Origin: an uncultured Pseudomonadota bacterium
GTDB taxonomy: Bacteria; Myxococcota_A; UBA796; SXON01
Direction of reading: 5' to 3'
NCBI GenBank assembly: GCA_903844155.1
Contig: CAIMSU010000199.1
Location: 1-57,285, forward strand
DNA: 57,285 nt
The notes under the pieces were generated by a model. It did no database searches. It saw only the letters and a list, made by a program, of their open reading frames with translations, and was not told the DNA's origin. Position numbers and translations under genes: made by a program. This document shows positions 133 to 57,046 of the stretch, in pieces. Within the stretch, counting starts at the first letter, position 1. Every line of letters begins with the position of its first letter.

Positions 133-135
133 CCT

Positions 136-15851: not shown

Positions 15852-15925
15852 TCCCGCTTAGCTCAGTTGGTTAGAGCATCTGACTGTTAATCAGAGGGTC
15901 CCCTGTTCAAATCAGGGAGCGGGAG
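15852..15925 (+). tRNA. tRNA-Asn (GTT)
   Basis: A complete cloverleaf: acceptor TCCCGCT pairs with AGCGGGA, D stem GCTC/GAGC, anticodon stem TCTGA/TCAGA with loop CTGTTAA giving anticodon GTT, a five-base variable loop, and T arm CCCTG-TTCAAAT-CAGGG. The discriminator is G and CCA is not encoded. The 3' 45 bases are the core of the island attachment site, so integration leaves the tRNA intact. Confidence 0.96.
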
Positions 15926-15927
15926 CA
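15881..15927 (+). repeat. attachment site, left copy (tRNA-Asn 3' half)
   Basis: Runs from the anticodon stem through the discriminator base to the following CA. It is identical over 47 bp to 57000-57046 and diverges on both sides. This is the copy that keeps the tRNA functional. Confidence 0.93.
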
Positions 15928-19003: not shown

Positions 19004-20065
19004 TCAGCTGCGCCCTCGCAACCCGCGGCGAGCGAGCCCCTCGGCGATGTCAGGCGAGGGCGCCGAGCCGGCGTCGCGGGCGAGCGCCGGCCCGTCCGTT
19101 CCCCCACGGTTCCAGAGGCTTAGCTGCCGCGACTGATCTTGGGCGGCGCGAGGGGCTGGCTCCATCCCCCCGACCCGATCCTGGGTCGCCGGGTAGTTGG
19201 TCACCACCAGCTCCTGAATCTTGCCGCGCCCAGCGCTCACCGAGTTGATCAACCGGGACGCCTGGACGTGGTGTTTGAACAGCCGGGGCTGGTCGTAGAG
19301 CGACTCGATGAACTCGGCCGTGCTGTTCGACGCCATCCACTGGCAGCGGCTCGCCAACCGGAGCAGCGTGTCGCGCAGGGCGGTCTGGTCGGCTCGCGTG
19401 AATGCGTCCTTCGTGTACGCCGTGAAGGACGAGGTGGCCGACATCGGCTCGTACGGAGGATCGAGATACACGAAGTCGCCGTCGGCGATGAACCGCTCGC
19501 AGTCGCGGAAGGACGACGTCTCGATGCGCACGCCCTGGAGCAATCTTGATGCGGCGCGCAGGTGCGCGGCATCGAAAATCGCCGGGCTCGCATAACTGCC
19601 CATGGGCACGTTGAATTCTCCCTTATGGTTCACCCGATAGAGCCCGTTGAAGCATGTCTTGTTGAGGTATAGGAACCTCGCAGCGGCCTCGACTGTTCCG
19701 CCGGCTGGGCGTGCGGCGCGGACGCCGTAGTAGTACGCCTTCCGGTCCTCCTCGGAGAGCCCGGGCGTGTTGTGCCGACGGCGATGCTCACCCAGAAGGG
19801 GAAGGAGTTCCTCCACTTTGTCCCGAACCTGAACGAACAGGTTGACCACCTCTGCGTTTGCGTCAAGCAGCGTGCACCGCGAGGGATTTTTGGTCTGGAT
19901 GACGTCCCAGAAAACCGCGCCCGAACCCAGGAATGGCTCGACGTACCCCCGGCCGGCGAGCGACGCAGGCATGAGGGGGCAGAACTGCTCCAGCAGTTGG
20001 CCCTTCCCGCCGACCCACTTCAAGAATGGAGCAATACGTTGGAGGGCTGGGAGGGTTGGGGTCAT
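19004..20065 (-). CDS. dam: Dam-type (D12 class) adenine-N6 DNA methyltransferase
   Basis: A 353-residue methyltransferase of the D12/Dam class. It has FLKWVGGKGQLL (SAM-binding motif X), VEPFLGSGAVFWD (motif I, about residues 42-54), FLYLNKTCFNGLYRVN (131-146, characteristic of Dam) and catalytic DPPY at 202-205. Dam enzymes modify GATC; this one may do the same, but specificity is not proven by sequence. The C-terminal 60 residues past the conserved part are variable. It overlaps the upstream small gene (ATGA). No matching restriction enzyme is adjacent, so it is a solitary methylase, possibly protecting or regulating the island. Confidence 0.88.
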   Translation of the reverse strand: MTPTLPALQRIAPFLKWVGGKGQLLEQFCPLMPASLAGRGYVEPFLGSGAVFWDVIQTKNPSRCTLLDANAEVVNLFVQVRDKVEELLPLLGEHRRRHNTPGLSEEDRKAYYYGVRAARPAGGTVEAAARFLYLNKTCFNGLYRVNHKGEFNVPMGSYASPAIFDAAHLRAASRLLQGVRIETSSFRDCERFIADGDFVYLDPPYEPMSATSSFTAYTKDAFTRADQTALRDTLLRLASRCQWMASNSTAEFIESLYDQPRLFKHHVQASRLINSVSAGRGKIQELVVTNYPATQDRVGGMEPAPRAAQDQSRQLSLWNRGGTDGPALARDAGSAPSPDIAEGLARRGLRGRS

Positions 20066-22996: not shown

Positions 22997-24013
22997 ATGG
23001 GCGACCGAGTTACCGCCTTCGGCATGCTCAAGTTCGATCTCGGCGCAAAGACCCTGTCCCCGCTGACCCGCTCCTCGATGGCAGAAAGCAACATCCTGGA
23101 ACGTGGTGATTTGCAGCAGGCAATACGGGGATCGTGGGAGGCCTTTCGGAACGAGATGGGGATGCCGGAGCTGATCCTGTTGGGCGAGGAGATCCAGCCC
23201 TGCGCGGACTGCAAGGACAGGATCGACTTGCTCGCGTTGGACTCAGACGGCCACCTCGTGATCATAGAGCTGAAGCGGGGACGGGAGCGGCTGCAGCTGA
23301 TGCAGGCGATCGCCTATGCCGGTATGGTCGCGCAATGGGACGCCCAGGAGCTTCGGCAGCGGGTCCCGATGGCGCGGGTCCCGCAGGCCGCGGACGTGGA
23401 GGACCTTCTCGCCTCCCCCGGAGGGGTCAAGTTCGGGGAGCCGCGCATCGTCCTTCTGGCAGAGCTCTACGACCCGGAGGTCATCATCGGCGCGCACTGG
23501 CTCAGCAGGTACGACGTGCCCATCACGGCCTACACCGCCAGTCTCTTGACTCTGGAGGGTAGCACCTTCCTCGCGGTCCAGCAGCGGTACCCGCTGCCTG
23601 AATTGAAGGACGTGTATGTCTCGCGGTCCAGGTCCGGCGACGTTGCCGAGGCCGAGACCGGATGGAAGGAGGTCCTACCTCAGCTCAAGCTGGCGTGGGC
23701 GGAGCACGCCATCACCTTGCTCTGCCGTCTGAAGGCCGGTGATCCGGTGCGTCGGCGGTTCGTCTCCCTGTTTTCCGACGGCCCCTTCGGCGGGGTGCAG
23801 ATGAACATCGGGCAACACCACGTCAAGGTGTACACGTACAACCAGTCTGAGGAGCAGGCCGCAGGCCTTCGCGCAGCCCTCGGGTCGACTCCGTTTACGA
23901 CGTGGGGCAGCGAGCAGACGGCCAACTCCGGCTACACGTTCGCGCTAAAGACGCAGTTCGAATTTGACCGATTCGTCGCCGCCGCATCCGCTCCCACCAA
24001 GCAGGCGCCGTAA
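22997..24013 (+). CDS. NucS/DUF91-like PD-(D/E)XK nuclease
   Basis: A 338-residue protein from ATG 22997 (ATG 23021 is an alternative). The nuclease core is CKDRIDLLALDSDGHLVIIELKRG (about residues 73-96): Asp, about twelve residues, then Glu-x-Lys, followed by the Gln-rich helix RLQLMQAIAYAGMV, as in NucS/DUF91-type endonucleases. The C-terminal about 150 residues are a separate alpha/beta domain ending in KTQFEFDRFVAAA. It stands alone, with no partner gene, near the middle of the regulatory part of the island. Likely a defence or DNA-processing nuclease. Confidence 0.72.
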   Translation: MGDRVTAFGMLKFDLGAKTLSPLTRSSMAESNILERGDLQQAIRGSWEAFRNEMGMPELILLGEEIQPCADCKDRIDLLALDSDGHLVIIELKRGRERLQLMQAIAYAGMVAQWDAQELRQRVPMARVPQAADVEDLLASPGGVKFGEPRIVLLAELYDPEVIIGAHWLSRYDVPITAYTASLLTLEGSTFLAVQQRYPLPELKDVYVSRSRSGDVAEAETGWKEVLPQLKLAWAEHAITLLCRLKAGDPVRRRFVSLFSDGPFGGVQMNIGQHHVKVYTYNQSEEQAAGLRAALGSTPFTTWGSEQTANSGYTFALKTQFEFDRFVAAASAPTKQAP

Positions 24014-24049: not shown

Positions 24050-24433
24050 TCACGCCGACGGCTCCGTCCTCTCCACCTTCCTCGCCTCCTCCACCCCCTC
24101 CACATGCGCCCGCACCAAAGCCAGCGCGTGCCGAAGCTGCACCGACGACAACGGCGCGAGCAGCGCCACGATGCGCTCGATCTCCGGCGTCGACGCCATG
24201 ACGCCTTCCGACCCGAATCCGCTGAGAAACCCGTCGAGGTCCGTGCCCAGCGCCAAGGAGATCCGCTCCACCCAGTCGAACGTCGGCACCTGCGCGCCGC
24301 GCTCGAACCGACTGACCGTCTCAACGGCCACGCCGGACCCCAGCCGCTCGGCGAGCTTCGCCTGTGACAGCCCCGCCCGGAGCCGAAGCTCCCGGATCCG
24401 CTTCCCGACTCGCGTGCCGACGTTGGTTACCAT
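24050..24433 (-). CDS. XRE-family transcriptional regulator
   Basis: A 127-residue protein with a classic Cro/C1 helix-turn-helix over residues about 9-66 (VGKRIRELRLRAGLSQAKLAERL, then VSRFERGAQVPTFDWVERISLALG). The C-terminal half is helical. Start at ATG 24433, where the domain begins. It faces away from the gene at 24536, and a 6-7-6 palindrome lies between them. Confidence 0.82.
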   Translation of the reverse strand: MVTNVGTRVGKRIRELRLRAGLSQAKLAERLGSGVAVETVSRFERGAQVPTFDWVERISLALGTDLDGFLSGFGSEGVMASTPEIERIVALLAPLSSVQLRHALALVRAHVEGVEEARKVERTEPSA

Positions 24434-27690: not shown

Positions 27691-27691
27691 C

Positions 27692-29287: not shown

Positions 29288-29288
29288 C

Positions 29289-30917: not shown

Positions 30918-30918
30918 C

Positions 30919-36107: not shown

Positions 36108-37247
36108 CTAACGCCAGTCATCGAGGACGCATCGCCCCGCTCGCAACGGGGCGGTGAGCGACGCGAGGTCCGTGATATCGGGAAGGCGAATCCAAAGGCG
36201 ATCCTGCGCTCCGAGCTTGGTTTCGTAGTGTAGGAGCTCACGCCACTCCACGCGATTCGGACAATGGAAGCCCAACCAGCGGCCCTGAGGCGCCCGGCCC
36301 TCTATGGCGCCGCTGAGCGCCCCCTCAGGCTGGAAGGAGCGGAAGCGTTCCCGGTTGTGCGGCTCGATTCGCCATCCGCCGAAATGGCCCTCGATGATCG
36401 CTTCGATCGGGGCGTAGAACGCCTCGTCGGGCGGAATCGGCCCGACGGCGGGAGGTCGACCCCCAGATCCGGCCTTATCAGCTCTCTTCGCCATCTCAGC
36501 TCCTTTCGTTCCGTTCGACTCTACCACGCCCGTCGTGACCGCTCCTTGAGCCGGCAATACCTCCCACACATGAAAGTCGAAGTCGCACGCCCAATCCGCG
36601 CCGCCCCCGCTCGCCAACCGTAGAGCTTCGACCTGCCGAAGTCGCATGCTCGTCTCCGGGAAGTGGTTCACCGCTTTGCCGGAGCCGGTCGCAAACGCGG
36701 GAACGCGAACGTCCGCGACAGGTGGTGCGTCAGGCGCGAGGAGATCCTGCAGGAAGCGTTGACCCGCCTGGTTCGCCCCGGCGTCGGTCGAGAGGAACCC
36801 GCCCGATTCGCCACTTTTTCGCCAGCGCCTCCGCCCGTGTTGGGGGTGGACGTCGACCTGCGTAAGGCTCACGAAGTACGCGCCCACTCCATCGCTCGCG
36901 CGCGCCCGCTGCTTCACGAAGTCGCGAAGGTGGTGCGCCGTGCCGTCCTTGCTTGCGCTACGCAGCGCGTCGTTGGACGCCGGATGGTGCTTCAACGTCG
37001 CATGCCAGAGCTTCAGCTCCAGCAGGTACTTCTTGTGGCCGGCGCCCACCGGCCGGATGTGGACATCGACCTTATCCGCCTCTGGGCAGTAGAACTTCGG
37101 ATCCGCGTAGCCCGGGTCGGCGCTCAGCAGGGCCTCCCGCAAGCACGACCGGATGTCCTCCTCGCGCAGCAGGTGCGCCGGCAGGCGCCCGACGACGGCC
37201 TCCAGGTTGGATAGGAACAAGGGCCAGAACCGTTCGTTCTCAATCAT
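36108..37247 (-). CDS. protein of unknown function with PD-(D/E)XK-like motif
   Basis: A 379-residue protein from ATG 37247 (a longer frame upstream is Gly-rich and unconserved). Near the N-terminus, DKVDVHIRPVGAGHKKYLLELKLW has an Asp, then Glu-x-Lys on a following strand, the spacing of a PD-(D/E)XK nuclease core. A basic middle part leads to a C-terminal region with WLGFHCPNRVEWRELLHYETKLGAQDRLWIRLPD. It starts the leftward side of a block that may also include the WD40 gene 60 bases upstream. The nuclease assignment rests only on this motif. Confidence 0.5.
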   Translation of the reverse strand: MIENERFWPLFLSNLEAVVGRLPAHLLREEDIRSCLREALLSADPGYADPKFYCPEADKVDVHIRPVGAGHKKYLLELKLWHATLKHHPASNDALRSASKDGTAHHLRDFVKQRARASDGVGAYFVSLTQVDVHPQHGRRRWRKSGESGGFLSTDAGANQAGQRFLQDLLAPDAPPVADVRVPAFATGSGKAVNHFPETSMRLRQVEALRLASGGGADWACDFDFHVWEVLPAQGAVTTGVVESNGTKGAEMAKRADKAGSGGRPPAVGPIPPDEAFYAPIEAIIEGHFGGWRIEPHNRERFRSFQPEGALSGAIEGRAPQGRWLGFHCPNRVEWRELLHYETKLGAQDRLWIRLPDITDLASLTAPLRAGRCVLDDWR

Positions 37248-37306
37248 GCTGCAGCCTCCTCTGGGGTGTATCCGATCATCGGCTCGACATTGTCTAAAAA
37301 TCGTCC

Positions 37307-39421
37307 TCAAAACTGCCTCCCCTCCACCGCCCCCTTCGCCTCCCCCAACCCCACCCGGCGGTTCCCGGCCCACAGGTGCAGCACCGCCAGCTCGCTCCCA
37401 CGGACGGCCACCACGACACCATCCTCACGCAACGCGCACGCGCGCCACTGCCCCTCGCTATGCCAGGCCGCACGCGCGCCGGCCCCCTGCTGCAGTGTCA
37501 CCGTCTCCCCTCCGCGCAGGGCCCAGCCGGCTCGCTGGCGGACGTCAGGCGATTCGAATCCCGGATGCAGCGGTCTGGCTTCGTCGGGGGTCAAGCGCTT
37601 GATCACATTGCCATTCTGCAGATGCCAGAGGACGCCACCGGGCCAGCCGGCCTGCATGCTCCACGCGAGCACCCGGCCCTCGTCCAGCTCGACGGCGCCC
37701 ATGACCGGTCCTGCGAGCCGCAGCGTCCGCAGCAGCCACCCGTTCCAACCCCACACGCGGGCGGTGCCATCGAGGCTCCAGGTGAGGACGCCGGAGCCGT
37801 CCTTCAGCGGGCGTGCGCCGACGACGGGTGCTTCGTGGCCGAGGAAGCTCAGGCTGCCGACCTCTGTGAGCGGATCGCAGAGCGCCATTTCGCCCACTCC
37901 GTAGCCGACAATCACCCGCCGACCGGGCATCGCGCGAAGGAGGCCGATTCGGCTGTCAAACTGCCGCTCGCCGACGAGTTCGCCGCTGACCGGCTCCCAG
38001 ACCCGCAGCCAGCGATCCGGTCCTCCGGAGATCACATGCTCGCCGACCACGCACGCCTCGGCGACGGGGCCAAAGTGCGCCCGAATGACGCGGACAACCG
38101 CGCCGGTCTGCAGGTCCCAGGTCCGCAGCGTCCCGTCGCCCGCGACGGAGACCGCGAGATCGCCGACGAGCACGGCGCCCTGAATGTCGACGCTGTGCCC
38201 GGTTGGCGCAGCGGGATCGGTGCCGTCGCACTCGTTGGGGGCGTGAACGGTCTCGCGGAAGAGGAAAGTCTCGCGGTCGTCCGGCGGAGGGGCGTTGCGG
38301 AGGTCGAGGAGGACGACGCGGCCGTCGAGGGTCCAGGCGACGGCGTGGTTGTCGTCGACGAGCCGCCCGTCGACGTACTCGTATGGTCCGGCGACAACCG
38401 AGCGGACCCCGCCGGTGATGACGTGGCGGACCCGGAGGTGTCCACCGTCGCAGCAGAGTCTCCACCGTTCGGGCCTGGGGCCGGCGCGTCCCCGTTTCTC
38501 GCGCACACCCGGCGGCGCGACAGGCCGACCATCAAAGTCAAAGCGACGTTTTTCGCCGTCCTCATACAAGCAGACGACGCGGTTGCCCTCCAGCCAGATG
38601 CCCCTGCAGCCTCCTCGGATCGGCCCGAGCGTCGCCCGCCACGACCAATCCGGATGCAGGACCTCGACGCCGAGGTCGCTGTGGACGACGATGCCACCAT
38701 CCGCGAGCGGCAGCACGTCCTCCACAACTGCAGGTTCTCCGCGGGTAGTCTGCTCCCGCACCGCGACCACGTGGTCGAGTGGGACGGGCCCGACGCGACG
38801 CAACCAGAGCCAGTCGGGCCCGCCGGTCGCCAGCCAGGCCTCGGCAGCGTCCGCGAGCGCGCCACCTCGCTGCAGCGCCGCTGAGAGCAGGACGTGGGCC
38901 GGGCTTTCGCCTGCAAACGGAGGACGGTGCAGGCGAGCGAGGCGGTGCGCGACGCGACGGGTGAACGCCGGGTCTGCCGGGAGTTCGAGCGCGACGACGG
39001 CGTCAAACCGCCGGAGGGCGGTTCGGGCCTCCTCGCGGAGATGCGAGTCGGAGTCGTTGAGGACGCCGCGGAGCGCGGGAAGGACTGATGAATCCCCGAG
39101 ATTCCCGAGCGCGCGGGCGATCCCCGGACGCGAGCGTGCCCGCGGGTCGAGCAGCCGGGTGACGAGGTCGGCGACGACAGTCCGGTCCCCACGCGTCGCC
39201 AGTACCGTCAGGGCAGCCGCGCGCACGCGGCGGTCAGCGTCATCGACGCGCGCGTGCAGTCGGGCGGTGATGCCGTCGCCCTTCGCGGTCGCCAGCGCAT
39301 TCGTCGCCGCGATCCGGCGTAACGGGTCGGCGTCGTCGAGCCAGACCAGGCTCGCGCTCACGGCTCGCGGCGGGGTGGCGATGGGCGCGTCGTCGCGGGT
39401 GAGCATGAGCAGGGGACGCAT
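37307..39421 (-). CDS. HEAT-repeat / WD40 propeller protein
   Basis: A 704-residue cytoplasmic protein. The first about 160 residues are HEAT-like helical repeats (DDADPLRRIAATNALATA, VDDADRRVRAAALTVLAT, LNDSDSHLREEARTALRR). The remainder is a WD40-type beta propeller with repeats such as SVAGDGTLRTWDLQTGAVVRV, SGGPDRWLRVWEPVSGELV and LTWSLDGTARVWGWNG. There is no catalytic domain; both parts bind proteins. ATGA overlap with the membrane-protein gene upstream shows they are made together. Start at ATG 39421. Confidence 0.8.
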   Translation of the reverse strand: MRPLLMLTRDDAPIATPPRAVSASLVWLDDADPLRRIAATNALATAKGDGITARLHARVDDADRRVRAAALTVLATRGDRTVVADLVTRLLDPRARSRPGIARALGNLGDSSVLPALRGVLNDSDSHLREEARTALRRFDAVVALELPADPAFTRRVAHRLARLHRPPFAGESPAHVLLSAALQRGGALADAAEAWLATGGPDWLWLRRVGPVPLDHVVAVREQTTRGEPAVVEDVLPLADGGIVVHSDLGVEVLHPDWSWRATLGPIRGGCRGIWLEGNRVVCLYEDGEKRRFDFDGRPVAPPGVREKRGRAGPRPERWRLCCDGGHLRVRHVITGGVRSVVAGPYEYVDGRLVDDNHAVAWTLDGRVVLLDLRNAPPPDDRETFLFRETVHAPNECDGTDPAAPTGHSVDIQGAVLVGDLAVSVAGDGTLRTWDLQTGAVVRVIRAHFGPVAEACVVGEHVISGGPDRWLRVWEPVSGELVGERQFDSRIGLLRAMPGRRVIVGYGVGEMALCDPLTEVGSLSFLGHEAPVVGARPLKDGSGVLTWSLDGTARVWGWNGWLLRTLRLAGPVMGAVELDEGRVLAWSMQAGWPGGVLWHLQNGNVIKRLTPDEARPLHPGFESPDVRQRAGWALRGGETVTLQQGAGARAAWHSEGQWRACALREDGVVVAVRGSELAVLHLWAGNRRVGLGEAKGAVEGRQF

Positions 39422-40218
39422 CAGGCCACCTCCAGCGCGGCGAGCCCGCGACCGTCGACCGTCCGCAGTCCAGACTCCACGGCCTCGAAGGCGTCGAAGA
39501 GGTCGGTGCAGGGGTCGGGGCGGTGGTCCGGCAGGAGGCCGAGCGGGTGGTTGGCGAGCACCTCCTCGTCCATCGCCGCACGCATCAGCAGCAGGTCGCG
39601 CCGGTCCATCACCCGCTTCGTCGCCTCGGCGACCCGCCGGGACTGGTCGGGCGGCAACGTGCCGTAGGCGTCGCGGACGCGCAGCTGGTCCAGCCACACG
39701 GCGACGTGATCGTAGGCGTCGAGCGCGTCGGCGAGCTGCCGGATGTACCGGCAACGGGGATCGGCGGAGATGCCGCCTTCGTCCTCAGCGGCGCCGTTCG
39801 CGACCCGCAGCAGCCAGCACCCTGCAGCGGCCGGCACCGCGAGGACGATCGCAGCCAGCAGCGCGCTGGCGATGCACGCGACGACCCCGCACGCGAGCGC
39901 CACGCCGACCGGGCCGTCGAGCACGCCGAGGCCCACGACCGTCGCCCCCAGCGCCAGCGCAACGACGACAGCGCCGAGCCCGAGCATCGCCCCGGCCGCG
40001 GGAATCGCGAGCACCAGCATCCCGGCGAGGAGCACAGCGTCCGCCAGAAACGCCGCGAATGCTTCTGCGTAGGCAAGTGCTGCCATGAGGCGCCGTTCGG
40101 CGAGGGCGTGGTCGTCTGCCGGCAGGAACCGCAGGTCGGCGATGGCCGCTCGCAGCGCTGGGCCAATGTGATCGTGGATCCGGAGGGTGAGGACGACGGG
40201 GCGATTGGGTGCCTTCAT
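39421..40218 (-). CDS. membrane protein coupled to the HEAT/WD40 gene
   Basis: A 265-residue protein. A charged N-terminus is followed by a hydrophobic block (about residues 50-145) with three to four membrane helices (DAVLLAGMLVLAIPAAGAMLG, VVALALGATVVGLGVL, GVALACGVVACIASALLAAIVLAV). The C-terminal about 120 residues are soluble and helical (YIRQLADALDAYDHVAVWLDQL). The stop overlaps the start of the HEAT/WD40 gene. No family recognised; the pair may form a membrane-attached complex. Confidence 0.7.
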   Translation of the reverse strand: MKAPNRPVVLTLRIHDHIGPALRAAIADLRFLPADDHALAERRLMAALAYAEAFAAFLADAVLLAGMLVLAIPAAGAMLGLGAVVVALALGATVVGLGVLDGPVGVALACGVVACIASALLAAIVLAVPAAAGCWLLRVANGAAEDEGGISADPRCRYIRQLADALDAYDHVAVWLDQLRVRDAYGTLPPDQSRRVAEATKRVMDRRDLLLMRAAMDEEVLANHPLGLLPDHRPDPCTDLFDAFEAVESGLRTVDGRGLAALEVA

Positions 40219-40623
40219 GGGACTCCTAGTCAGGGGGTGGCGTTGGTGGTCGGGGTGGTACCCAGCACCAAAATTTCTTGCACGAAGGTGGCGAAGAAAG
40301 TTTGAACGTCCGTTCAGCGAGATGCCGGGACCGTCGAATATCCAGGGGCGTGGCTGCGAATCGTCGGCGTCGGCCGCCGCCGCACACCGCGACTGGGGGA
40401 AGCCCAGACGCACGGGCGGGTCCGGGGCCGCCGTGTCCTGAGCCGGGTCTGACCTGGGCCGCTACGGGCAGCCGCAAGGGGCGATGGCGGCGAGACGCTT
40501 GGAGAGAAAGGCCGGTTGGTTGAGCTCCCACGGCAGCATGCCCTTCACTGCGCCTTGATGCGCGTCGGCGAGCCGGAACACATCGGTTCGGTTGTCCGCA
40601 CCGTGAGCGTTACTCTCGCCACC
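40219..40623. other. divergent intergenic region
   Basis: Separates the leftward membrane-protein operon from the rightward DUF2779 gene. I see no gene. It contains a perfect TetR-type palindrome at 40303-40316, about 85 bases before the membrane-protein start. Confidence 0.6.
40303..40316. promoter_or_regulatory. TetR-type palindrome, candidate operator
   Basis: TGAACG-TC-CGTTCA is a perfect 6-bp inverted repeat with a 2-base spacer, a layout well known for TetR/AcrR-family operators. No TetR gene lies in the window, so the regulator would act from elsewhere. Confidence 0.4.
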
Positions 40624-42138
40624 ATGACGCTTTCCCCAAACCCGCTGTCGAAGTCGCGATATCTCGCGGGCCTGCAGTGTACGAAGCGGCTGTATTGGGA
40701 AGTGCATCGGCGCGATCTGCTGCCGCCCGGGCAGATCGCGTCCGGCGTGCAGGCACTCCTCGACGTGGGGACGGAGGTCGGGCGGCTCGCGCGCACCCGA
40801 CATCCGCGCGGCGTACTGATCGAGCACGACCACCTCCATCACGACGACGCCGTGGAGGCGACCAGGAACGCGATGGCAGATCCGACCGCGCGGGCGATCT
40901 TCGAAGCCGCCTTCACACACGGTGGGGTGAAGATCCGGGCGGACATCCTGATTCGGCGACAAGACGACCTTTGGGACCTCCAAGAGGTCAAGGCCAGCCT
41001 GAGCGCGAAGGCGGTGCACCTCGCCGACCTGGCCATCCAGGTGCACGTCCTCCGAGGCTCCGGGGTAAAGCTCCGTCGGATTGGCATACTTCACCTCAAC
41101 CGTGAGTATGTGCGGGGCCCCGCCGGTCTCGACCTGCGCGGGGTCTACCAATTCACGCCCCTCGGTCTGGCGATTTCCGTGGAGCTGGTGGAGGCCAAGT
41201 TGATGCTGCCGGAATTCCACCGAATGCTCAAAGCCAGCGACCCACCCGCGGTTGTCGCAGGTGACCACTGCCACACCCCCTACGAGTGCCCGTTTTTCTA
41301 CCTTTGCGGTCCACCGCAGGCACCCCTCGACCCGGGCGGCGGCGGCGTCGCCTCGGGGATGTCGGATGCGGGCATCGAGCCTGCTCAGTCGGTGCCTGTG
41401 GACGTGCGGATGTCCGCTTTGCAGCGACGCATGGCTGCTGCCGTCGCGGACGGCCGCGAGTATGTCGGGCCCGGCCTTCGGGCCTCGCTTGTCCCCGTCG
41501 GCTCCCCGATCAGCTTCCTTGATTTCGAGGCATTTCAGCCAGCGATCCCTCGGTACGTCGGCACCGGCCCATACACCCCGCTGCCCACCCAGTGGAGCCT
41601 TCATCGCCGCTCGCACGACGGCGGGCTGGGGCACGCAGAGTTCCTCCACGATGCGGACACCGACCCTCGCCCAGCGTTTGCCGACTCGCTGCTGGCCGCG
41701 CTCGAGCGCGACGAGGGCGTGATCGTCGTGTTTTCCCCGTTCGAGGGCACCGTGATCAAGAGGCTTGCCGCGCATTTTCCGGTCCTTCAGGACCGCCTGA
41801 TGGCGCTACTGCCCCGCTTGGTCGATCTCCTTCAGGTACTCCGAAAGGACTACTACCACCCTGATTTTGGAGGTTCGTTCTCCCTCAAGAGCGTGCTCCC
41901 GGTTCTAGTCCCCGACCTCGCGTACGCCGACCTTGCCGTTCAGGACGGACTCGCCGCCGCTGCCGCGTACGCGAGGATGATCGACGCGCCGACGACGCCC
42001 GTCGAGCGGGCGACGATTCGGGAGTCGCTCCTTCGGTATTGCGAGCGCGACACGCTCGCCCTGGTCAGGGTTCGAGAGGCGCTGCTCGCGAAATGCGGTG
42101 GGGCCGGGTTGTGGGGGCCGCCTTTCACCCCGGCATGA
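40624..42138 (+). CDS. DUF2779 protein: RecB/Cas4-like nuclease fused to an exonuclease-like domain
   Basis: A 504-residue protein of the DUF2779 family. The N-terminal half is a Cas4/RecB nuclease: YLAGLQCTKRLYW supplies an N-terminal Cys, VKIRADILIRRQDDLWDLQEVKAS supplies Asp and Glu-x-Lys, and HCHTPYECPFFYLC supplies three more cysteines for a likely Fe-S cluster. The C-terminal half resembles a DEDD 3'-5' exonuclease fold: ISFLDFEAF near residue 300 and YCERDTLALVRVREAL near the end. Start at ATG 40624. Probably acts on DNA ends in defence or repair; partners are not obvious, and it stands alone between two divergent and distant units. Confidence 0.82.
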   Translation: MTLSPNPLSKSRYLAGLQCTKRLYWEVHRRDLLPPGQIASGVQALLDVGTEVGRLARTRHPRGVLIEHDHLHHDDAVEATRNAMADPTARAIFEAAFTHGGVKIRADILIRRQDDLWDLQEVKASLSAKAVHLADLAIQVHVLRGSGVKLRRIGILHLNREYVRGPAGLDLRGVYQFTPLGLAISVELVEAKLMLPEFHRMLKASDPPAVVAGDHCHTPYECPFFYLCGPPQAPLDPGGGGVASGMSDAGIEPAQSVPVDVRMSALQRRMAAAVADGREYVGPGLRASLVPVGSPISFLDFEAFQPAIPRYVGTGPYTPLPTQWSLHRRSHDGGLGHAEFLHDADTDPRPAFADSLLAALERDEGVIVVFSPFEGTVIKRLAAHFPVLQDRLMALLPRLVDLLQVLRKDYYHPDFGGSFSLKSVLPVLVPDLAYADLAVQDGLAAAAAYARMIDAPTTPVERATIRESLLRYCERDTLALVRVREALLAKCGGAGLWGPPFTPA

Positions 42139-43076: not shown

Positions 43077-44618
43077 ATGGCGAAGGCCCCCACCGACAAG
43101 ACCGCCTCCCTCGGCTTCGAGGACAAGCTCTGGCTCGCGGCCGACGTGTTGCGCAACAACCTCGATCCCGCCGAGTACAAGCACGTCGTCCTCGGGCTCA
43201 TCTTCCTGAAGTACATCTCGGACGCCTTCGAGGAGCGCCAGGCGCAGCTCCGCGCCTCCGGTGACGCCGATCTGCTCGAAGACCGCGACGAGTACACCGC
43301 CGAGAACGTGTTCTGGGTGCCCCAGCAGGCGCGTTGGTCGCACATCCAGGGACTCGCGACGCAGCCGACGATCGGCAAGGTGCTCGACGACGCGATGGAC
43401 GCGATCGAGGAGGTCAACCCCGTGCTCAAGGGGGCGCTGCCCAAGGCGTTCGGCCTCCCCGCGCTCGACAAGCAGAAGCTCGGCGAGCTGATCAACCTGA
43501 TCTCGGGGATCGGGCTCGGCACGAAGGAGCACCGCAACAAGGACACGCTCGGGCGCGTCTACGAGTATTTCCTGTCGCGTTTCGCCTCGGCCGAAGGGCG
43601 CGGGGGCGGCGAGTTCTACACACCCACGAGCGTGGTGCGCGTGCTGGTCGAGATGCTGGAGCCCTACCAGGGGCGCGTCTACGACCCGTGCTGCGGATCG
43701 GGCGGCATGTTCGTGCAGTCGATGAAGTTCCTCGAAGCCCACGGGGGCCGGCGCGACGCCGTGACCGTCTACGGGCAGGAGTCGAACCCGACGACGTGGC
43801 GCATGGCCCGGATGAACATGGCGATCCGCGGCATCGAAGCGAAGCTCGGCAAGCAGCACGCCGACACGTTCCACCGCGACCTGCACCCGGACCTTCGCGC
43901 CGATTTCATCATGGCGAACCCGCCGTTCAACATCTCGAATTGGGGTGGTGAGCGGCTCGCCGAAGACGTGCGCTGGCGCTTCGGCTCCCCGCCCGCCGGG
44001 AATGCGAACTTTGGCTGGCTGCAGCACATCGTTCACCACCTGTCGCCCACGGGGACAGCTGGCGTCGTGCTCGCGAACGGCTCTATGTCGTCGCAGCAGT
44101 CGGGTGAGGGCGAGATCCGCCGCAGGCTGATCGAGGCCGACCTTGTGGACTGCATGGTCGCGATGCCGGGGCAGTTGTTCTATGCCACGCAGATCCCGGT
44201 GTGTCTGTGGTTCCTGGCTCGCGACAAGGGCAATGGGAAGTTCCGCAAGCGGAGCGGCGAGGTGCTGTTCATCGACGCGCGCAAACTCGGGCGGATGGAG
44301 ACGCGGGTTCACCGGGTGCTCGATCCGGACGACATCGAGAAGATCGCCGGCACTTACCACGCATGGCGCAGCACAACAGCCAGGTACGAGGACGCCGCAG
44401 GGTTCTGTAAGGCGGCGACGAAGGCCGAGGTCTTGGCGAATGACTGCGTGCTAACACCGGGGCGGTACGTCGGAGCTGAAGACGTGGAGGACGACGCGGA
44501 GGCGTTCGCGCAGAAAATGGAGAGACTGGTGGCGGCATTGGCCGAGCAACAGGCGGAAGGTCGCCGGTTGGATGTATCGATCGCGGCGGGGCTGCGAGAG
44601 ATCGGCTTTGATGTTTGA
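43077..44618 (+). CDS. hsdM: type I restriction-modification methyltransferase subunit
   Basis: A 513-residue N6-adenine methyltransferase subunit HsdM. The helical N-terminal domain ([30 protein letters not shown], in pieces at 18-47) is followed by the motif [20 protein letters not shown]-binding motif [11 protein letters not shown] at 203-212 and catalytic NPPF at 281-284. Complete and intact. It overlaps hsdS by 8 bases. Confidence 0.95.
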
Positions 44619-45909
44619 CATCCCGAACCGCTGGCGTTGGGTCACGGTAGATGACATTACCGCACCAGAGAAGTACTCGTGCGTCGGTGGCCCATTCGGC
44701 TCCAACCTGACAAGCAAGGACTACGTGGATGCCCCTGGCGTCCCGGTGATCCGTGGCCAGAACATGGGGGACGCGACCCGTCGGTTCGTAGATGACGAAT
44801 TTGTCTACGTCAGCGCCGAAAAGGCCCGACGCTTGCGACAGAACATGGCGTTCCCTGGCGACTTGGTGTTCACCCAACGCGGGACCTTGGGGCAGGTGGC
44901 CTGGATTCCTGCGCGCACCCGATTTCGCGAATACGTCGTTTCGCAGAGTCAGATGAAGCTGACGGTAGATCCCGCCAAGGCGGATGCCGGCTTCGTCTAT
45001 GCCTTCTTCCGGTCGAAGGCGGCGCTGGAGTACATTCAGCGAAACACGATGGCGACAGGGGTACCGCACACAAACCTGGGCATCTTACGAGCGTTTCCCA
45101 TTCCTCTCCCGCCCCTGCCCGAGCAACGTCGAATCGCGACGGTGTTGGGAGCCATTGACGAAAAGGTGGAACTGAACCGCACCATGAACCAAACGCTGGA
45201 CGAGATGGCGCGGGCCATCTTCGAGGCGACGTTCGTTGACTTCGGCGGATGTAACGATCTGGTGGAAAGTGAGATTGGCCCGATCCCGGCTGGGTGGGGC
45301 ACTCGCTCACTGTTCGAGTCCGCGACCTACATTAATGGTGCCGCCTACCGTGACTTTGACTTCACATCCGACGGCACGGGAACCCCAGTAATCAAGATCG
45401 CGGAGTTGAAGGCGGGGGTGACATCGACCACGAAATTCACCCTGAAGCAAATGGATCCGCGGTACCGGATTGATGACCGGGAGATGTTGTTCTCATGGTC
45501 GGGTAATCCTGATACCTCCATCGATACGTTCATCTGGAGCGGAGGCACGGCGTGGCTGAACCAGCATATTTTCAAGGTCTTGCCGCATCGCGCCGACGAG
45601 TGGTACTTTGTGTTCTACCTGCTGAGGCACCTCCGGCCGGTGTTCGCTGAGACAGCCCGGGACAAACAAACTACCGGGTTGGGGCACGTCACCGGCGGTG
45701 ACTTGAAGCGGATGCGCGTTGTTCGACCGCCTGCGAAGGCTCTCGCGGCGTTCAACAAAGTAGTCTCACCGATCTTCAACAGATGGTACTCCAACACCAG
45801 GAGCACCCGCACGCTTGCGGACCTCCTCGACACCATCCTCCCGAGGCTGACCTCCGGCGAACTGAGCCTCCCCGACGCAGAAGCCGCCATTGACGAGGCC
45901 GGGGGATGA
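44611..45909 (+). CDS. hsdS: type I restriction-modification specificity subunit
   Basis: A 432-residue HsdS with two target-recognition domains. The first spans about residues 5-165 and ends at the conserved [22 protein letters not shown] helix start; the second starts at [19 protein letters not shown] (about residue 230) and ends in [18 protein letters not shown]. It determines the bipartite DNA target of the complex; the target itself cannot be read from sequence. Overlaps hsdM and the following gene (ATGA). Confidence 0.92.
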
Positions 45910-46871
45910 GCACCACCTGGAACCTCGAACAGATCCCGGAGCGCCAGACCATCCCGCTCAGCGCTGGCGCGGACGGATACCTCGGCCGTGAGTGCCCGCA
46001 ATCGGAGTGTGAGCGGTACTTCAAAATCACGCCCGGCACGGGGCTGTCGGGCATCGACACCTGCCGGTGTCCCTACTGCGGATTCGAGGAACACCAGGGC
46101 CAATTCCACACGAAGGACCAGATTGCTCACGCCAGGTCCGTCATCGTGACCCAAGTCATGGGTGCGATGCTGAAAGACCTGAAGGGCATGGAGTTCAACC
46201 ATCCCCCGCGAGGCGCCTTCGGCATCGGCATCTCGATGAAAGTGACCGGTAGCCCGCCGCCCGTCCGCGGCTACTCCGAGCTTGACCTCGAAACCGAGGT
46301 TGTCTGCGACGCCTGCACGCTCCGCTACGCCATCTACGGCGTCTTCGGCTACTGCCCCGACTGTGGGACGCACAACAACCTAGGCATCCTCGACGCCAAC
46401 CTCCGGCGCAGCGCGCAGATGCTCGCCCTGGCGGTCGCCTCAGACGACCCAGCCCTCCGTGAGTACCTCGTCCAAAACGCGCTCGGGGCATGTGTGTCAG
46501 CCTTCGACGGCTGGGGCCGGGCGGTCTGCGAGGCATTCGCGGCCAAGGCGACGGACCCCAAGAAGGTCAAGGGGATCAGCTTTCAGAACCTCACCGGAGC
46601 GCGCGACAAGCTCCGGCTCATGTTCGGCTTCGATGCCGAGGCGGCCGTCGGAGTCACGGACTTCAACTCCGTCCACCGGGCGTTTCAGAAACGCCACGTC
46701 GTCGCACACCGGATGGGCGTCGTGGACGCCGACTACCTGAAGTCCACGGGTGACGCGGGTTCCGTCCTGGGCCGGAAGGTGGTCATCGAGGCGGCCGAGG
46801 TCGACGCCACGAGCGCCGCGCTACGACGGTTGGCTGCGGCCCTCGCCGCGCACCTCGGTGGCTTGCCATGA
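45906..46871 (+). CDS. zinc-ribbon protein with C-terminal HEPN-like domain
   Basis: A 321-residue protein embedded in the R-M operon (ATGA overlaps at both ends). The N-terminus has a zinc-ribbon-like cluster with C30, C35, C53/C55 and C58, and a second ribbon at C134-x2-C137 and C150-x2-C153. The C-terminal helical part contains [19 protein letters not shown], where R263-x4-H268 fits the HEPN RNase motif and the GVVD-x-x-Y tail is seen in HEPN proteins. It could be an RNA-cleaving effector or a sensor added to the R-M system. HEPN identity is by motif only. Confidence 0.68.
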
Positions 46872-47998
46872 CCCTCCCCGACACCACCGCCCTCGTCGCC
46901 GAGATCCGGGCACTGCTGCTGGCGGCGCGCTCCGCGGCGAACAGGCAGGTGAACGCGCTTCAGGTGTTGACCAACTTCGAGATCGGCCGGCGGATCGTCG
47001 TCCACGAGCAAGGGGGGGCTCGCCGGGCAGAGTACGGCAAGGCGGTGCTGCAGCAGGTGTCCGCCGAGCTGGCGGCCGAGTTCGGGCGGGGCTACTCGAC
47101 CGAGAACCTCCGGCTGTTCAGGAAGTTCTACCTCACCTATCAGGACCGGCAGATTTCCCAGACGCCGTCTGGGATTTTGCTCCCCCTCGACGCCGCCGAG
47201 ATTTCCCAGACGCCGTCTGGGATTTTGCCTGCGGCCGAGATTGCCGAGACGTCGTCTCAACTTTCCACCCCGTCGAGCCGCCCGTCCCTGCCATTCCGGC
47301 TCGCCTGGTCGCACTATGCCTTCCTCGTCAGCGTCCGCGACGCGGCCGAGCGCGCGTTCTACGAGATCGAGGCGGCGAACGGCGGGTGGACGATCAAGGA
47401 GCTGCGCCGCCAGTTCGACAGCAGCCTGTACGAGCGCCTCGCTCTCTCCCGCGACAAGGAGGCCGTCCGCGCGCTGGCGACCGTGGGGCAGGTGGTCGAG
47501 AAGCCCTCCGACCTGTTCAAGGAGCCGCTCGTCCTCGAATTCCTGGGGATGGACGAGCGCCCCAGCTACTCCGAAACCGAGTTGGAGAGCGGCATCATCG
47601 ACAAGCTGGAGCACTTCCTGTTGGAGCTGGGGAAGGGCTTCCTCTTCGAAGGGCGCCAGCGCCGCTTCACCTTCGACGACGAGCACTTCTTCATCGACCT
47701 CGTGTTCTACAACCGTCTGTTGCGCTGCTTCGTCCTGGTGGACCTGAAGATCGGGAAGCTCACCCATCAGGATCTCGGCCAGATGCAGATGTACGTCAAC
47801 TTCTACGACCGGAACGTGAAGCTCCCAGAGGAGCGGCCCACCATCGGCATCATCCTCTGCAAGAAGAAGCGCGACGCCCTCGTCGAGATCACGCTGCCTG
47901 CCGACGCGAACATCCACGCCCGCGAGTACCTGCTCGCGCTCCCGAGCAAGGACGACCTCCGCCGGAAGCTGCTGGAATGGACCGGAGAGGCCCCATGA
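46868..47998 (+). CDS. DUF1016 (YhcG-like) PD-(D/E)XK nuclease
   Basis: A 376-residue DUF1016 protein. The N-terminal domain ([36 protein letters not shown]) is followed by a variable insert and then [12 protein letters not shown] and the nuclease core [22 protein letters not shown], with Asp and Asp-x-Lys, ending in a typical [11 protein letters not shown] strand. The insert holds two in-frame copies of ISQTPSGIL (residues 96-104 and 112-120), each encoded by a 30-bp repeat containing a 17-base palindrome. It overlaps both neighbours by four bases. Members often occur beside restriction systems and mobile genes. Confidence 0.88.
47151..47228 (+). repeat. 30-bp direct repeat with internal palindrome inside the DUF1016 gene
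   Basis: Identical 30-bp units at 47151-47180 and 47199-47228, period 48 bp, so the frame is kept. Each contains the palindrome CCCAGACGCCGTCTGGG (47157-47173 and 47205-47221). Confidence 0.9.
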
Positions 47999-50900
47999 GC
48001 GGCTTCGAGTCCGTCGTCGAAGAGGCCGCGATCGAGTGGCTCGTCGAGCTGGGCTGGAAACACGTCCCCGGCCCGATCCTCGCGCCCGACGGCGAGGCCC
48101 CGGAGCGCGCTAACTACCGCACGGTCCTCCTCGAACGACGGCTCCGCGCTGCGCTCACCCGCATCAACGATCACCTCCCGCCTGACGCGATCGACGAGGC
48201 GGCGCGCACGGTGCTGCGGCTCGACTCGCCCTCGTTGGAGGAGCGCAACCACGCCTTCCACAAGCTCGTGCGCGAGGGCGTCTCGGTGAAGGTCAAGAAG
48301 GCCGGGACCGAGCGCGGCGACATCGCCTGGCTGTTCGACCACGCCGACCCCGACAAGAACGACTGGACCGTCGTGAACCAGCTCACGGTGGTCGATGGTG
48401 CCAACAACCGTCGGCCCGACCTCGTTCTCTATGTCAACGGCCTGCCGCTCGCGGTGATCGAGTTCAAGAACCCCGAGGATCCGAACGCCACCATCGAGGG
48501 CGCCCACAACCAGCTCCAGCTCTACAAGGACCACGTCCCCGCCTTGTTCCACATGAACGAGGTGCTCGTCGTGTCCGATGGCACTGAGGCCCGCGTCGGC
48601 AGCCTCACGTGCGGGTTCGAGCGCTTCGGCCCGTGGCGCACCATCGACGGCGCCACCCCTGTCCCCGACGCGCTCCCCAAGCTCCTCGTCCTCCTGCACG
48701 GCCTGTTCGAGAAGCGCCGGTTCCTCGACTACCTGTACCACTTCGTCCTCTGGGAGACCGACGACGGCTTCGTCAAGAAGATCGCCGGCTACCACCAGTT
48801 CCACGCGGTGAACAAGGCCGTTGCGGCGACGCTGCGCGCGTCAGCCGAGACCGGCGATCAGCGCATCGGCGTGGTGTGGCACACGCAGGGGTCGGGCAAG
48901 TCGATCTCGATGGCGTACTACGCCGGCAAGGTCATCCTCGAACCCGAGATGCAGAACCCGACGATCGTGGTGGTCACCGACCGCAACGACCTCGACGGGC
49001 AGCTCTACGCGCAGTTCTGCGCGGCGAAGGACCTCGTCCCGAGCCCCAAGCAGGCCGAGAACCGCGAGCACCTGCGCGAGCTGCTCAACGTCGCGTCGGG
49101 TGGCGTCGTGTTCACCACCATCCAGAAGTTCTCCCTGACCGAGCAGGAGCGCACCCTCCGCGATCAGTTCCCCGTGCTCTCCCGTCGGCGGAACATTGTC
49201 GTCATGGTCGACGAGGCGCACCGCACCCAGTACGGCTTCGACGTGCGGCTCGACCCCAAGACCGGCCAACTCTCGGCGGGCTTGGCGAAGAACCTCCGCG
49301 ACGCGCTCCCGAAGGCGAGCTTCATCGCGTTCACGGGCACGCCGATCGCGCTGGCCGATCGTTCGACGGCGGCGGTCTTCGGCGAGACCATCGACACCTA
49401 CACGATCCGCCAGGCCGTCGATGACGGCGCCACGGTGCCGATCTACTACGAGGCCCGCCTGGCGCGCATCAACCTCGCCGAGGACGAGAAGCCGCGCATC
49501 GACGAGCAGTTCGAGGAGGTGACCGAGGACGAGGAGGAGGACACCCGGCAGAAGCTCAAGACGACGTGGGCGCGGCTGGAGGCGCTCGTCGGCACCAAGA
49601 AGCGGCTGACGCTCGTGGCTGAGGACATCCTCGACCATTGGGCCCGGCGCGTCGAGATCCTCGATGGCAAGGCGATGATCGTCTGCATGTCCCGCCGTAT
49701 CTGCGTGGACCTGTACCGCGAGATCACTCGGCTCCGGCCCGACTGGCACTCCGACAAGGATGAGGAGGGCGCGATCAAGGTGGTGATGACGGGCTCCGGC
49801 GCGGACCCGAAGGAGTACCACCCCCACATCCGCGGGAAGGAGCGCCAGAAGGCCGTCGAGAAGCGGTTCAAGGACGCGCCAGATCCCCTCAAGATCGTCA
49901 TCGTGCGCGACATGTGGCTGACCGGCTTCGACGTGCCCTGCGCACACACGCTCTACATCGACAAGCCGATGCAGGGGCACGGGCTTTTACAGGCCATCGC
50001 CCGGGTGAACCGCCGGTTCAAGGACAAGCCCAGCGGCCTCGTCGTGGACTACCTCGGGCTCGCCGACCAGCTCCGCAAAGCGATCTCAGCTTACGGCGGC
50101 GGTGAGGGCGAGAAGCCCGGCGTGCCCATCGAGGTCGCGCTCTCCGTGCTGCAGGAGAAGTTCGAGGTCGCTCGCGACCTCTTCCACGGCTTCGACTACT
50201 CCGGCTACTTCAGCACCAAGGCCACGCTTCGCCTCTCCGCGCTGGCGGGCGGCGTGAACCACATCTGCGGCCTCGATCCCAACGATCCCGAGAAGGCCAA
50301 GAAGCGGTACCTCGAAGCGATGTCGTCGCTCAACAAGGCGGCCGGAATCGCCCTTCACCTCGAAGGAGCGCGGCAGTTCCGCGACTCGATCGGCTATTTC
50401 CAGGCGGTCCAGGGCAACATCCAGAAGTACACCGTGGGTGCCTCGGGCAAGACCGACTCCGAGCTGCACGCCGCGATTCGCCAGATCGTGAGCGGGGCGA
50501 TCTCATCCGCGGGCGTCATCGACGTGTTCGGGACCGCCGGGATCCCCAACCCCGACATCTCGGTTCTCTCTGACGAGTTCCTGGAGACGGTGAAGAAGTC
50601 CGAGCACAAGAACCTCCAGCTCGAACTGCTGAAGAAGCTGCTCAACGACGAGATCAAGACCCAGAACGGCAAGAACGTGGTGCAAGCCCGTCGCTTCTCC
50701 GAGATGCTGGAGCGCACCCTCGCCCGCTACCAGAACCGGTCCATCGAGGCCGCCCAGGTCATCCTCGAGCTGATCGAGATGGCCAGGCAGATGCGCGACA
50801 CGCCGAAGCGCGGGGATGCGCTCGGGCTCACCGAGGACGAGCTGGCCTTCTACGACGCGCTCGTCGACCACGGCAACGTGAAGGAGATCATGGGCGACGC

Positions 50901-51117
50901 GGTACTCGCAGCCATCGCGCATGACCTCGTCGAGGCGATCCGCGCGTCGGTCACCATCGACTGGACGCAGAAGGAAGCCGTGCGCGCCGACATGCGGCGG
51001 AAAGTGAAGCGACTCTTGAAGAAGCATGGATACCCGCCGGACAAGCAGGAGGGCGCGGTCAAGACCGTGATCGAGCAGGCCGAGCGGGTGTGCCGGGATT
51101 GGGCGGGGGCGGCGTAA
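47995..51117 (+). CDS. hsdR: type I restriction enzyme endonuclease/translocase subunit
   Basis: A 1040-residue HsdR. The N-terminal nuclease domain has D142 and E156-x-K158 ([10 protein letters not shown], then LAVIEFKNP) and the QLQLYK helix; the motor has Walker A HTQGSGKS at 296-303, DEAH at 406-409 and FTGTPI; later helicase motifs include [11 protein letters not shown] and QAIARVNR. All expected catalytic residues are present, so with hsdM and hsdS the system should restrict unmodified DNA. It overlaps the DUF1016 gene (ATGA). The following pseudogene starts directly at its stop codon. Confidence 0.95.
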
Positions 51118-55627: not shown

Positions 55628-56788
55628 CTAATTGCCCTGTGCGATCTTTGTCTTCTGCTGCTCGATGACCTTGCCCCGATCCCCCTGCATGTCTTCCACC
55701 GCCGAGCGGAGGTCATCGATGCCAAGGGGCGCGTATACCCGCTCGGTGACGCGGATGTCCGAGTGTCGGAGCAGCTTGCTCGCGATGTGCAGCCCGGCCT
55801 TCCGGGCGATGTGGAGGCCAAAGGTCCGACGGAGGTCGTGGATCGTCACGTCCGGGATGTTCGCCGCCCTCCGCACCGCGGTCCAGCTGTTCCGCAGGTT
55901 TTCGCGGTGTTTATCCGAACTGCGCCCGGGGATCAGCCACTCGCCGACCCGTGGGACGTCCTTGAGGTAGGCCACAGTGCTGGGCGCGAGGGGCACGAAC
56001 TGCGGCCGCCCGGACTTGGTGTCCGGCAGTCGCCAGAGCGCCGCTCCCAGGTCCAGGTCGTCCCAGCGCGCGGTGAGCACCTCCGACTTCCGCGTGCCCG
56101 TATCCATGAGCAGCACAAAGGCGGCGCGTGCGTACACATCGGGGATCGCCTCAAACGCCTCGATGACCTTTCCGAATTCCTCGTCCGTCAACACGCGGGA
56201 GCGTGGCTGGGCCTCCCGAAAGGGCTTGATGAGGGAGGCGGGGTTCTCGCTGATCAGCTCATCCTTCACCGCCGCCTGCAGACAAGCGCGGACCGAGGCG
56301 AGCCACCGGTTCGCCGTTGTCTGGCCTCGCTTGGCCACGACCTCCATCGCCGCCTTGACGTCCCGACGCGTGATTTGGTCGAGCCTCTGTGTCGGCCAGG
56401 TTGCTGCGGCCAAGCCCAGATATCGCTCGTCCTCGTCGGGGCGCTTCTTCCGGCGCCGGACCTCGACCATATACTCCTCGCGGAATTTCGAGAAGGTCGG
56501 GATGCGGGCCAGCCGCTCGCGCTCCGAGAGGGGGTCTCCCCCTGCGCTGACTTCCGCGAGTTTCGCGGTGGCGAGCTCGCGCGCTGCCTCCACGGTCAGC
56601 GGACCGTAGGGACCGAGCGACATGCGGCGGCGTTTTTCGGCCGGGCCGTACTCGACGAAGAAGCCCTTCTTGCCGCTGGCCTGCACGACCAGTCCGAACC
56701 CGGTCAGGCCATCATCGTAGACCTTGGTTCTGCCTGATTCCGGTGCCTTCGTGGCGTCGACGACTCGCTTGGTGAGGTGGCTCTTCAC
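55628..56788 (-). CDS. int: P4-type tyrosine integrase
   Basis: A 386-residue site-specific recombinase. Residues about 1-90 are a DUF4102 arm-DNA-binding domain (VYDDGLTGFGLVVQ, RRMSLGPYGPLTVEAARELA), then a core-binding domain, then the catalytic domain with R233 (TGTRKSE), K258 (DTKSG), H317 and R320 (HDLRRTF), H342 (LLRHSD) and nucleophile Y352 (RVYAP). All catalytic residues are intact. It lies about 210 bases inside the right attachment site, and the five GGGTCGCAG repeats are upstream of its start, so it should drive island integration and, with the AlpA-like protein, excision. Confidence 0.95.
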   Translation of the reverse strand: MKSHLTKRVVDATKAPESGRTKVYDDGLTGFGLVVQASGKKGFFVEYGPAEKRRRMSLGPYGPLTVEAARELATAKLAEVSAGGDPLSERERLARIPTFSKFREEYMVEVRRRKKRPDEDERYLGLAAATWPTQRLDQITRRDVKAAMEVVAKRGQTTANRWLASVRACLQAAVKDELISENPASLIKPFREAQPRSRVLTDEEFGKVIEAFEAIPDVYARAAFVLLMDTGTRKSEVLTARWDDLDLGAALWRLPDTKSGRPQFVPLAPSTVAYLKDVPRVGEWLIPGRSSDKHRENLRNSWTAVRRAANIPDVTIHDLRRTFGLHIARKAGLHIASKLLRHSDIRVTERVYAPLGIDDLRSAVEDMQGDRGKVIEQQKTKIAQGN

Positions 56789-56999: not shown

Positions 57000-57046
57000 T
57001 GACTGTTAATCAGAGGGTCCCCTGTTCAAATCAGGGAGCGGGAGCA
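57000..57046 (+). repeat. attachment site, right copy (tRNA-Asn 3' fragment)
   Basis: Exact 47-bp copy of 15881-15927. It contains only the anticodon arm onward and is not a functional tRNA. Its sequence is used on the minus strand as the last 13 codons and stop of the recombinase that enters from the right. Confidence 0.93.

Follow-up and report, generated by a model that had tools for sequence, protein, structure and literature searches.

A 57,285-nucleotide contig of an uncultured Pseudomonadota bacterium (CAIMSU010000199.1 of assembly GCA_903844155.1; this whole stretch is called the window below) carries a three-gene operon that we tentatively read as an unrecognised defence module. The operon lies on the minus strand and encodes, in this order, a protein with four predicted transmembrane (TM) segments, a scaffold that combines HEAT repeats with a WD40 propeller (HEAT/WD) and a PD-(D/E)XK-like protein. 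It is part of the cargo of a mobile element integrated at a tRNA-Asn gene. Judged from sequence, the trio may be an NLR-like module of the sensor-plus-effector kind that lacks a nucleoside triphosphatase (NTPase) and acts against mobile genetic elements (anti-phage). We prefer this reading because of the location, the operon structure and the kinship of the scaffold, while being almost evenly divided about it.

The three genes are tightly arranged. The ATG of HEAT/WD overlaps the stop codon of the TM gene (TGATG), and the PD-(D/E)XK-like gene follows on the same strand after a gap of 59 bp, without overlap, which is consistent with a single transcript for these two genes. A gene caller based on codon usage, trained without the genes tested, reproduces the exact ends of all three (Table 1). 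For the fourth gene considered here, which encodes a DUF2779 double nuclease, it keeps the end and moves the start upstream. Codon usage gives the true frame the top score among the six for all four genes. The open reading frames (ORFs) of 265 and 704 amino acids (aa) described in the original prediction are thus upheld. That prediction had also grouped the four genes into one cluster, of which the minus-strand operon of three stands; the DUF2779 gene is divergent and separate, the two start codons being about 400 bp apart. Around the operon, Rfam reports no RNA element at the gathering threshold, and promoter and terminator scans of the region return chance level only.

The 704-aa protein was correctly recognised as a HEAT/WD40 protein: it matches HEAT_2 (E 1.2e-13) and several WD40/propeller models in Pfam. 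It matches no NTPase model in Pfam, and its 704 residues hold no GK dipeptide, so that a P-loop is absent. Two regions tie it to other WD40 proteins. A hidden Markov model (HMM) of the linker before the propeller, built from the sequences of six relatives only, finds the window protein at E 6.3e-6, the runner-up among 4045 targets being at E 0.18. An HMM of the C-terminal tail built from five relatives without the window protein recovers it at E 1.1e-12. With a tail profile that did contain the window sequence itself, we count nine hits, one of them to the window protein, spread over 5 of the order's 63 genomes: three each in genomes G031 and G035, one in the genome of the window, and one each in G030 and G059, the last two being weak (2.6e-4 and 7.7e-4). 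No full-length HEAT/WD relative turned up in 377 genomes of the phylum, in searches that scored 3 to 7 candidates per genome and could let weak relatives escape. Viral contigs yield none either, and plasmids yield partial matches to the propeller region only, on 11 records. The HEAT parts have separate relatives elsewhere. By its sequence, HEAT/WD belongs, as a divergent member, to a small family of patchy occurrence.

The eight relatives include four with a P-loop (one each in G031, G035, G030 and G059), three without (one in G031, two in G035) and one that is cut by a contig end. Pairwise identity among those with a P-loop is 39-60 % in alignments of 1509 to 1688 positions. One of them was scanned with Pfam and scores above the cut-off for NPHP3_N and below it for AAA_16 and NACHT. 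P-loop proteins of the STAND type are known from bacterial immunity (bNACHT). The window protein shares with these STAND/NACHT-WD40, NLR-like proteins (G031:C156 10276-15228, G035:C493, G030:C69 and G059:C132) the propeller, the tail and, with moderate support, the linker before the propeller. It differs from them in having HEAT repeats and no P-loop, and in the separate genes for a four-TM and a nuclease-like protein alongside. We infer that an ancestor of the STAND-WD40 type was probably remodelled into HEAT/WD; alternatively, the change may have run in the reverse direction.

The location is that of a mobile element. A direct repeat of the tRNA-Asn 3' end stands at both ends, and a tyrosine integrase gene lies inside; the perfect 47-bp repeats and the integrase bound an element of 41.1 kb (15881-57046) that encloses both the trio and the DUF2779 gene. 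The defence setting proposed in the original prediction holds to the extent that the trio travels on a tRNA-Asn element together with a type I restriction-modification (R-M) operon and further candidate defence genes, and that its scaffold is kin to STAND-WD40 proteins. It fails for the DUF2779 gene as a member of the operon.

The attachment (att) sequence recurs in the genus. Copies of at least 42 bp at an identity of at least 98 % occur in three of its five genomes, namely that of the window, G030 and G031; G030 has the tRNA-Asn copy only, while G031 has this and two further copies. In G030 (contig C110) the tRNA-Asn is followed by a recombinase-like ORF and then by matches to DrmD, DrmMI/type IIG, NsnA, NsnB and DruE. 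In G031, one att copy (C229) leads into a recombinase-like ORF with BrxE (weak), BrxA, BrxB, BrxC, PglZ and BrxL, and near the other (C98), at a distance of some 10 to 16 kb, are genes for type I HsdM and HsdR. We identified no empty site: the tRNA-Asn genes of both genomes are followed by other recombinase genes or a contig end. In reading these positions, the tRNA-Asn of G030 is on a different contig from the era match, and the two further copies in G031 are tied to the tRNA by the repeat alone. The elements also have backbone genes in common: window 24050-24433 is 65 % identical to a gene of G030 and window 24506-25075 matches at 58 % over 77 aa, while 20891-21214 and 21211-22440 match the BREX element of G031 (33 % over 79 aa and 40 % over 138 aa). 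The att copies and the exchanged defence genes in congeners suggest that this sequence attracts defence elements with changing cargo, and the tRNA-Asn sequence is likely a defence hotspot of the genus.

We hypothesize that the three proteins act jointly and in an antiviral role. HEAT/WD, which has the look of an NLR-type STAND-WD40 protein with HEAT repeats in the NTPase position, would serve as sensor and scaffold. Its propeller would bind a ligand or partner, and its HEAT surface would relay the signal to two partners: the translationally coupled four-TM protein, which would be an effector or an anchor in the membrane, and the PD-(D/E)XK-like nuclease. The outcome would be cleavage of nucleic acid, damage to the membrane, or both. 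It is conceivable, though we think it unlikely, that the trio represents a new class of immune operon, in which HEAT repeats replace the STAND NTPase of an NLR-like WD40 sensor and the effectors are split off as a translationally coupled four-TM protein and a PD-(D/E)XK nuclease, a modular and ATP-independent rewiring of the NLR design. A literature search with broad terms found no description of such a trio, and its novelty is likely, if not proven.

Several observations weigh against a defensive module. The linker evidence for STAND-WD40 kinship is moderate (E 6e-6), and since three of the eight relatives are also devoid of a P-loop, the lack of one does not set this operon apart. No scaffold relative sits in a proven defence locus. 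Our searches found no homologous trio operon and hence no conserved co-occurrence of the three genes. The 379-aa protein has neither a profile match nor a usable model, and a nuclease fold is unproven for it. As the original prediction had it, the set is not a recognised one: no PADLOC model fits the trio, and the sole match is of HEAT-ARM_XIII to the HEAT repeats (1.8e-5). Finally, the element also bears non-defence cargo, namely FG-GAP/MopE lipoproteins, a FGE protein and a Ser/Thr kinase, so that location by itself is no proof of defence.

The same cargo, with several of the lipoproteins in one element, agrees with another explanation, in which a lineage-specific WD40/HEAT scaffold and its membrane partner serve signalling or the envelope, the nearby PD-(D/E)XK-like gene has no relation to them, and the element is a mere carrier. 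The WD40-tail relatives, three each in G031 and G035, carry no defence label, and the 59 bp between HEAT/WD and the PD-(D/E)XK-like gene leave these two genes without the overlap seen upstream. Against this stand the placement of the trio in a tRNA-Asn defence element and the STAND-type P-loop in four of the eight scaffold relatives, and we consider a signalling or envelope role rather doubtful.

The PD-(D/E)XK-like protein (379 aa) bears the motif VD61-x15-E77-L-K79, encoded within 37011-37070 on the minus strand, in which the D...(D/E)xK residues fall in hydrophobic strands. This strict motif arises in 0.3 % of 5000 shuffles and occurs in 3 of 107 gene calls of the loci examined, one of them being DUF2779, where it lies away from the E-x-K site. 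The motif is the one ground on which the protein is assigned, as a candidate, to the PD-(D/E)XK group. The nuclease of the original prediction is therefore retained by motif and not by profile: Pfam, NCBIfam and PADLOC give no match and PHROG gives one at chance level (E 0.04). An AlphaFold2 (AF2) model reaches a pLDDT of 39 and is unusable, and the match to a PDB sequence (E 0.9) is again chance. No homologue turned up in 62 further genomes of the order, in plasmids, viral contigs or phages, or in the contigs of GTDB genomes, the last by a single-protein scan that detects close relatives only. Three matches in the 377 genomes of the phylum (E 0.007-0.008), from a search with the same limit on candidates per genome as for HEAT/WD, were rejected as chance.

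The D-x15-ExK motif, together with an R-M operon in the same element that starts 0.9 kb past the DUF2779 gene, would also fit a restriction-type nuclease that works by itself or as an accessory to the type I R-M system, with the TM and HEAT/WD pair as separate cargo. We regard this as improbable. The gene is co-strand with HEAT/WD, 59 bp behind it, and opposite to the R-M operon; no methylase gene adjoins it, and a type I system is not known to need such a subunit.

The membrane protein was rightly predicted as such. Its hydrophobic block (residues 44-141, encoded at about 39796-40089) is scored as four segments by hydropathy on the called gene, with soluble ends of about 45 aa at the N-terminus and about 125 aa at the C-terminus. 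A single-sequence AF2 model is helical with low confidence (pLDDT 60.5). The four libraries Pfam, NCBIfam, PADLOC and PHROG give no family match. Searches of the same 62 genomes, of plasmids, viral contigs and GTDB genome contigs, the last again by a scan for close relatives only, returned no homologue. Among the 377 genomes of the phylum (E limit 0.05, again with few candidates scored per genome), 46 others gave weak matches, mostly to TM segments, which we judged to be chance. The best of these (E 5e-5) covers residues 43-136 only and belongs to a four-TM gene amid unrelated genes; the rest are at 0.001 or worse. Matches to PDB sequences, none of them better than E 0.3, were likewise rejected. 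Neither this nor the PD-(D/E)XK-like protein is homologous to the genes flanking the WD40 relatives or to the plasmid-borne PD-(D/E)XK and AAA proteins beside DUF2779 described below. That both are without a credible match elsewhere would be expected of fast-evolving cargo, and we count it in favour of the defence module.

The DUF2779 protein is the Cas4/DEDD double nuclease that had been predicted. It matches PF11074 at 1.6e-34 (119.3 bits against a cut-off of 23.3), with weak matches to Cas4 in PADLOC (1.5e-6) and to RNase_H_2, and consists of a Cas4-like PD-(D/E)XK domain with Fe-S-type cysteines and a DEDD/RNase H-like domain. We compared the window copy with 19 relatives, counting the sequences that cover each position. 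Invariant are C19 (17/17), C216, C222 and C228 (19/19), D300, E302 and E374 (20/20), and D401 and D476 (19/19); E121 is kept in 14 of 18, and position 123 is K or R in all 18. PMC3985635 assigns DUF2779 (family F.17) to the RNase H-like superfamily, as a presumed 3'-5' exonuclease, and mentions that it contains DUF83 as well. The window copy shares with its family the RNase H-like exonuclease domain, the DUF83/Cas4-like PD-(D/E)XK domain and the catalytic residues. We found no difference, and it is an ordinary member.

DUF2779 occurs in 19 of the 63 genomes of the order, with two copies in the genome of the window. In one sister genus, ten loci have the same neighbouring ORF, and in seven the agreement extends to the genes beyond it, which indicates a fixed chromosomal place there. 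The original prediction had named homologues mainly in core housekeeping operons as what would speak against it, and the DUF2779 family is the only one of the set to come near this. At L049 6973-10188 (G000:C164), the second own copy starts 3 bp after a 575-aa ORF, which has no Pfam or PADLOC match, and lies near a recombinase-like ORF.

On plasmids we found 29 records with DUF2779 and opened 19 (7 with flanks of 7000 bases, 12 with 4500). A WYL gene is adjacent in four and within the stretch in six, four records have an adjacent gene annotated as AAA or ATP-binding and two an adjacent PD-(D/E)XK gene; several records, for example both opened ones from Croceicoccus and those from Ideonella and Polaromonas, have no such partner. 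IetA models of PADLOC match all three AAA proteins that were scanned, and the two PD-(D/E)XK proteins scanned match PF14281. The combination of DUF2779 with AAA, WYL or PD-(D/E)XK genes (L142, L144, L145, L148, L149, L156 and L157, from several phyla) is a possible undescribed module.

Adjacency in the window and these plasmid neighbours (PD-(D/E)XK in 2 and WYL in 4 of the 19 opened records) could suggest that all four genes form one defence system. We think this very unlikely. DUF2779 is transcribed divergently; 18 further genomes of the order have it, the genome of the window has a second copy, and in 19 stretches of 4.7 to 20 kb around the other copies no trio or R-M protein of the window has a match at E 1e-5. 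Its fixed place in the sister genus points the same way, and the window copy has no AAA, WYL or PD-(D/E)XK partner of the plasmid kind. It is an independent nuclease gene of a known family, outside the operon.

The trio also recalls the ternary MoxR-vWA-beta-propeller systems of PMC7159879. These combine a propeller component with a third component that has a membrane-spanning segment, and REase-fold effectors occur in the MoxR-vWA systems. We rejected this assignment, as no MoxR or vWA gene is present among those window genes that were scanned with Pfam, a part of the total. The G035:C493 locus (L116), where a NACHT-like WD40 gene lies near AAA_5 and CobT-type vWA genes, is reminiscent of such systems and is the only relative locus of this kind.

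Table 1. Positions of the operon, its parts and other features of the window
Feature	Position	Strand	Description
TM gene	39421..40218	-	First in operon; 265 aa; gene call, hydropathy, AF2 single sequence
HEAT/WD gene	37307..39421	-	Second in operon; 704 aa; HEAT, linker, WD40 propeller, C-terminal tail
Linker motif HVLLSAAL..LADAAEAWLATGGPDWLWLRR	38792..38899	-	Common to STAND-WD40 relatives
C-terminal tail module	37310..37534	-	Common to WD40 relatives
PD-(D/E)XK-like gene	36108..37247	-	Third in operon; 379 aa; gene call, motif
DUF2779 double nuclease gene	40624..42138	+	PF11074; start uncertain (40555 preferred by gene caller)
tRNA-Asn(gtt)	15852..15926	+	Integration target
Left 47-bp att repeat	15881..15927	+	3' part of tRNA-Asn; 100 % identical to 57000-57046
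Right 47-bp att repeat	57000..57046	+	Element end; 47/47 bp match to left repeat
Tyrosine integrase	55628..56788	-	Phage_integrase 3.5e-20, Arm-DNA-bind_3 7.2e-16; just inside right repeat
Type I R-M operon	43077..51117	+	HsdM 43077-44618, HsdS 44572-45909, HsdR 47995-51117
Genes between HsdS and HsdR		+	PDC-M14A-like 45906-46871; YhcG-type PD-(D/E)XK (PDC-S02) 46868-47998
PDC-S11 candidate defence gene	22997..24013	+	Longer ORF from 22664; PADLOC 1.8e-27; IDLL..IIELK nuclease motif
Dam-type (D12) N6-adenine methyltransferase	19004..20065	-	MethyltransfD12 1.4e-51

The remaining cargo is listed in Table 1. The type I R-M operon has the HsdM, HsdS, HsdR order and the att-flanked setting in a tRNA gene that are found in other tRNA-borne defence islands; here, a PDC-M14A-like and a YhcG-type gene lie between HsdS and HsdR. 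The YhcG-type gene contains a 48-bp tandem repeat (47151-47246, copies 79 % identical), with ISQTPSGI repeated in the protein. The PDC-S11 candidate has no Pfam match. FG-GAP/MopE genes (26296-32778 and 51148-53075) flank the block of kinase, trio and R-M genes and have exact 18-bp words in common; this may reflect insertion of the block into an FG-GAP array. An ORF that starts past the right repeat corresponds to the C-terminus of an ORF on G000:C164 (57 % over 87 aa), which we take, from its N-terminal sequence, to be a serine recombinase. A group II intron match at window 42-139 (Rfam RF00029, 43.9 bits) just exceeds the gathering score of 40.

The tRNA-Asn sequence in this genus is apparently a landing place for defence elements and thereby a defined spot in which to seek further systems. 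If the trio is defensive, it would offer an NLR-type sensor that lacks an NTPase and has its effectors in trans, and would bear on how STAND proteins transfer their signal to an effector.

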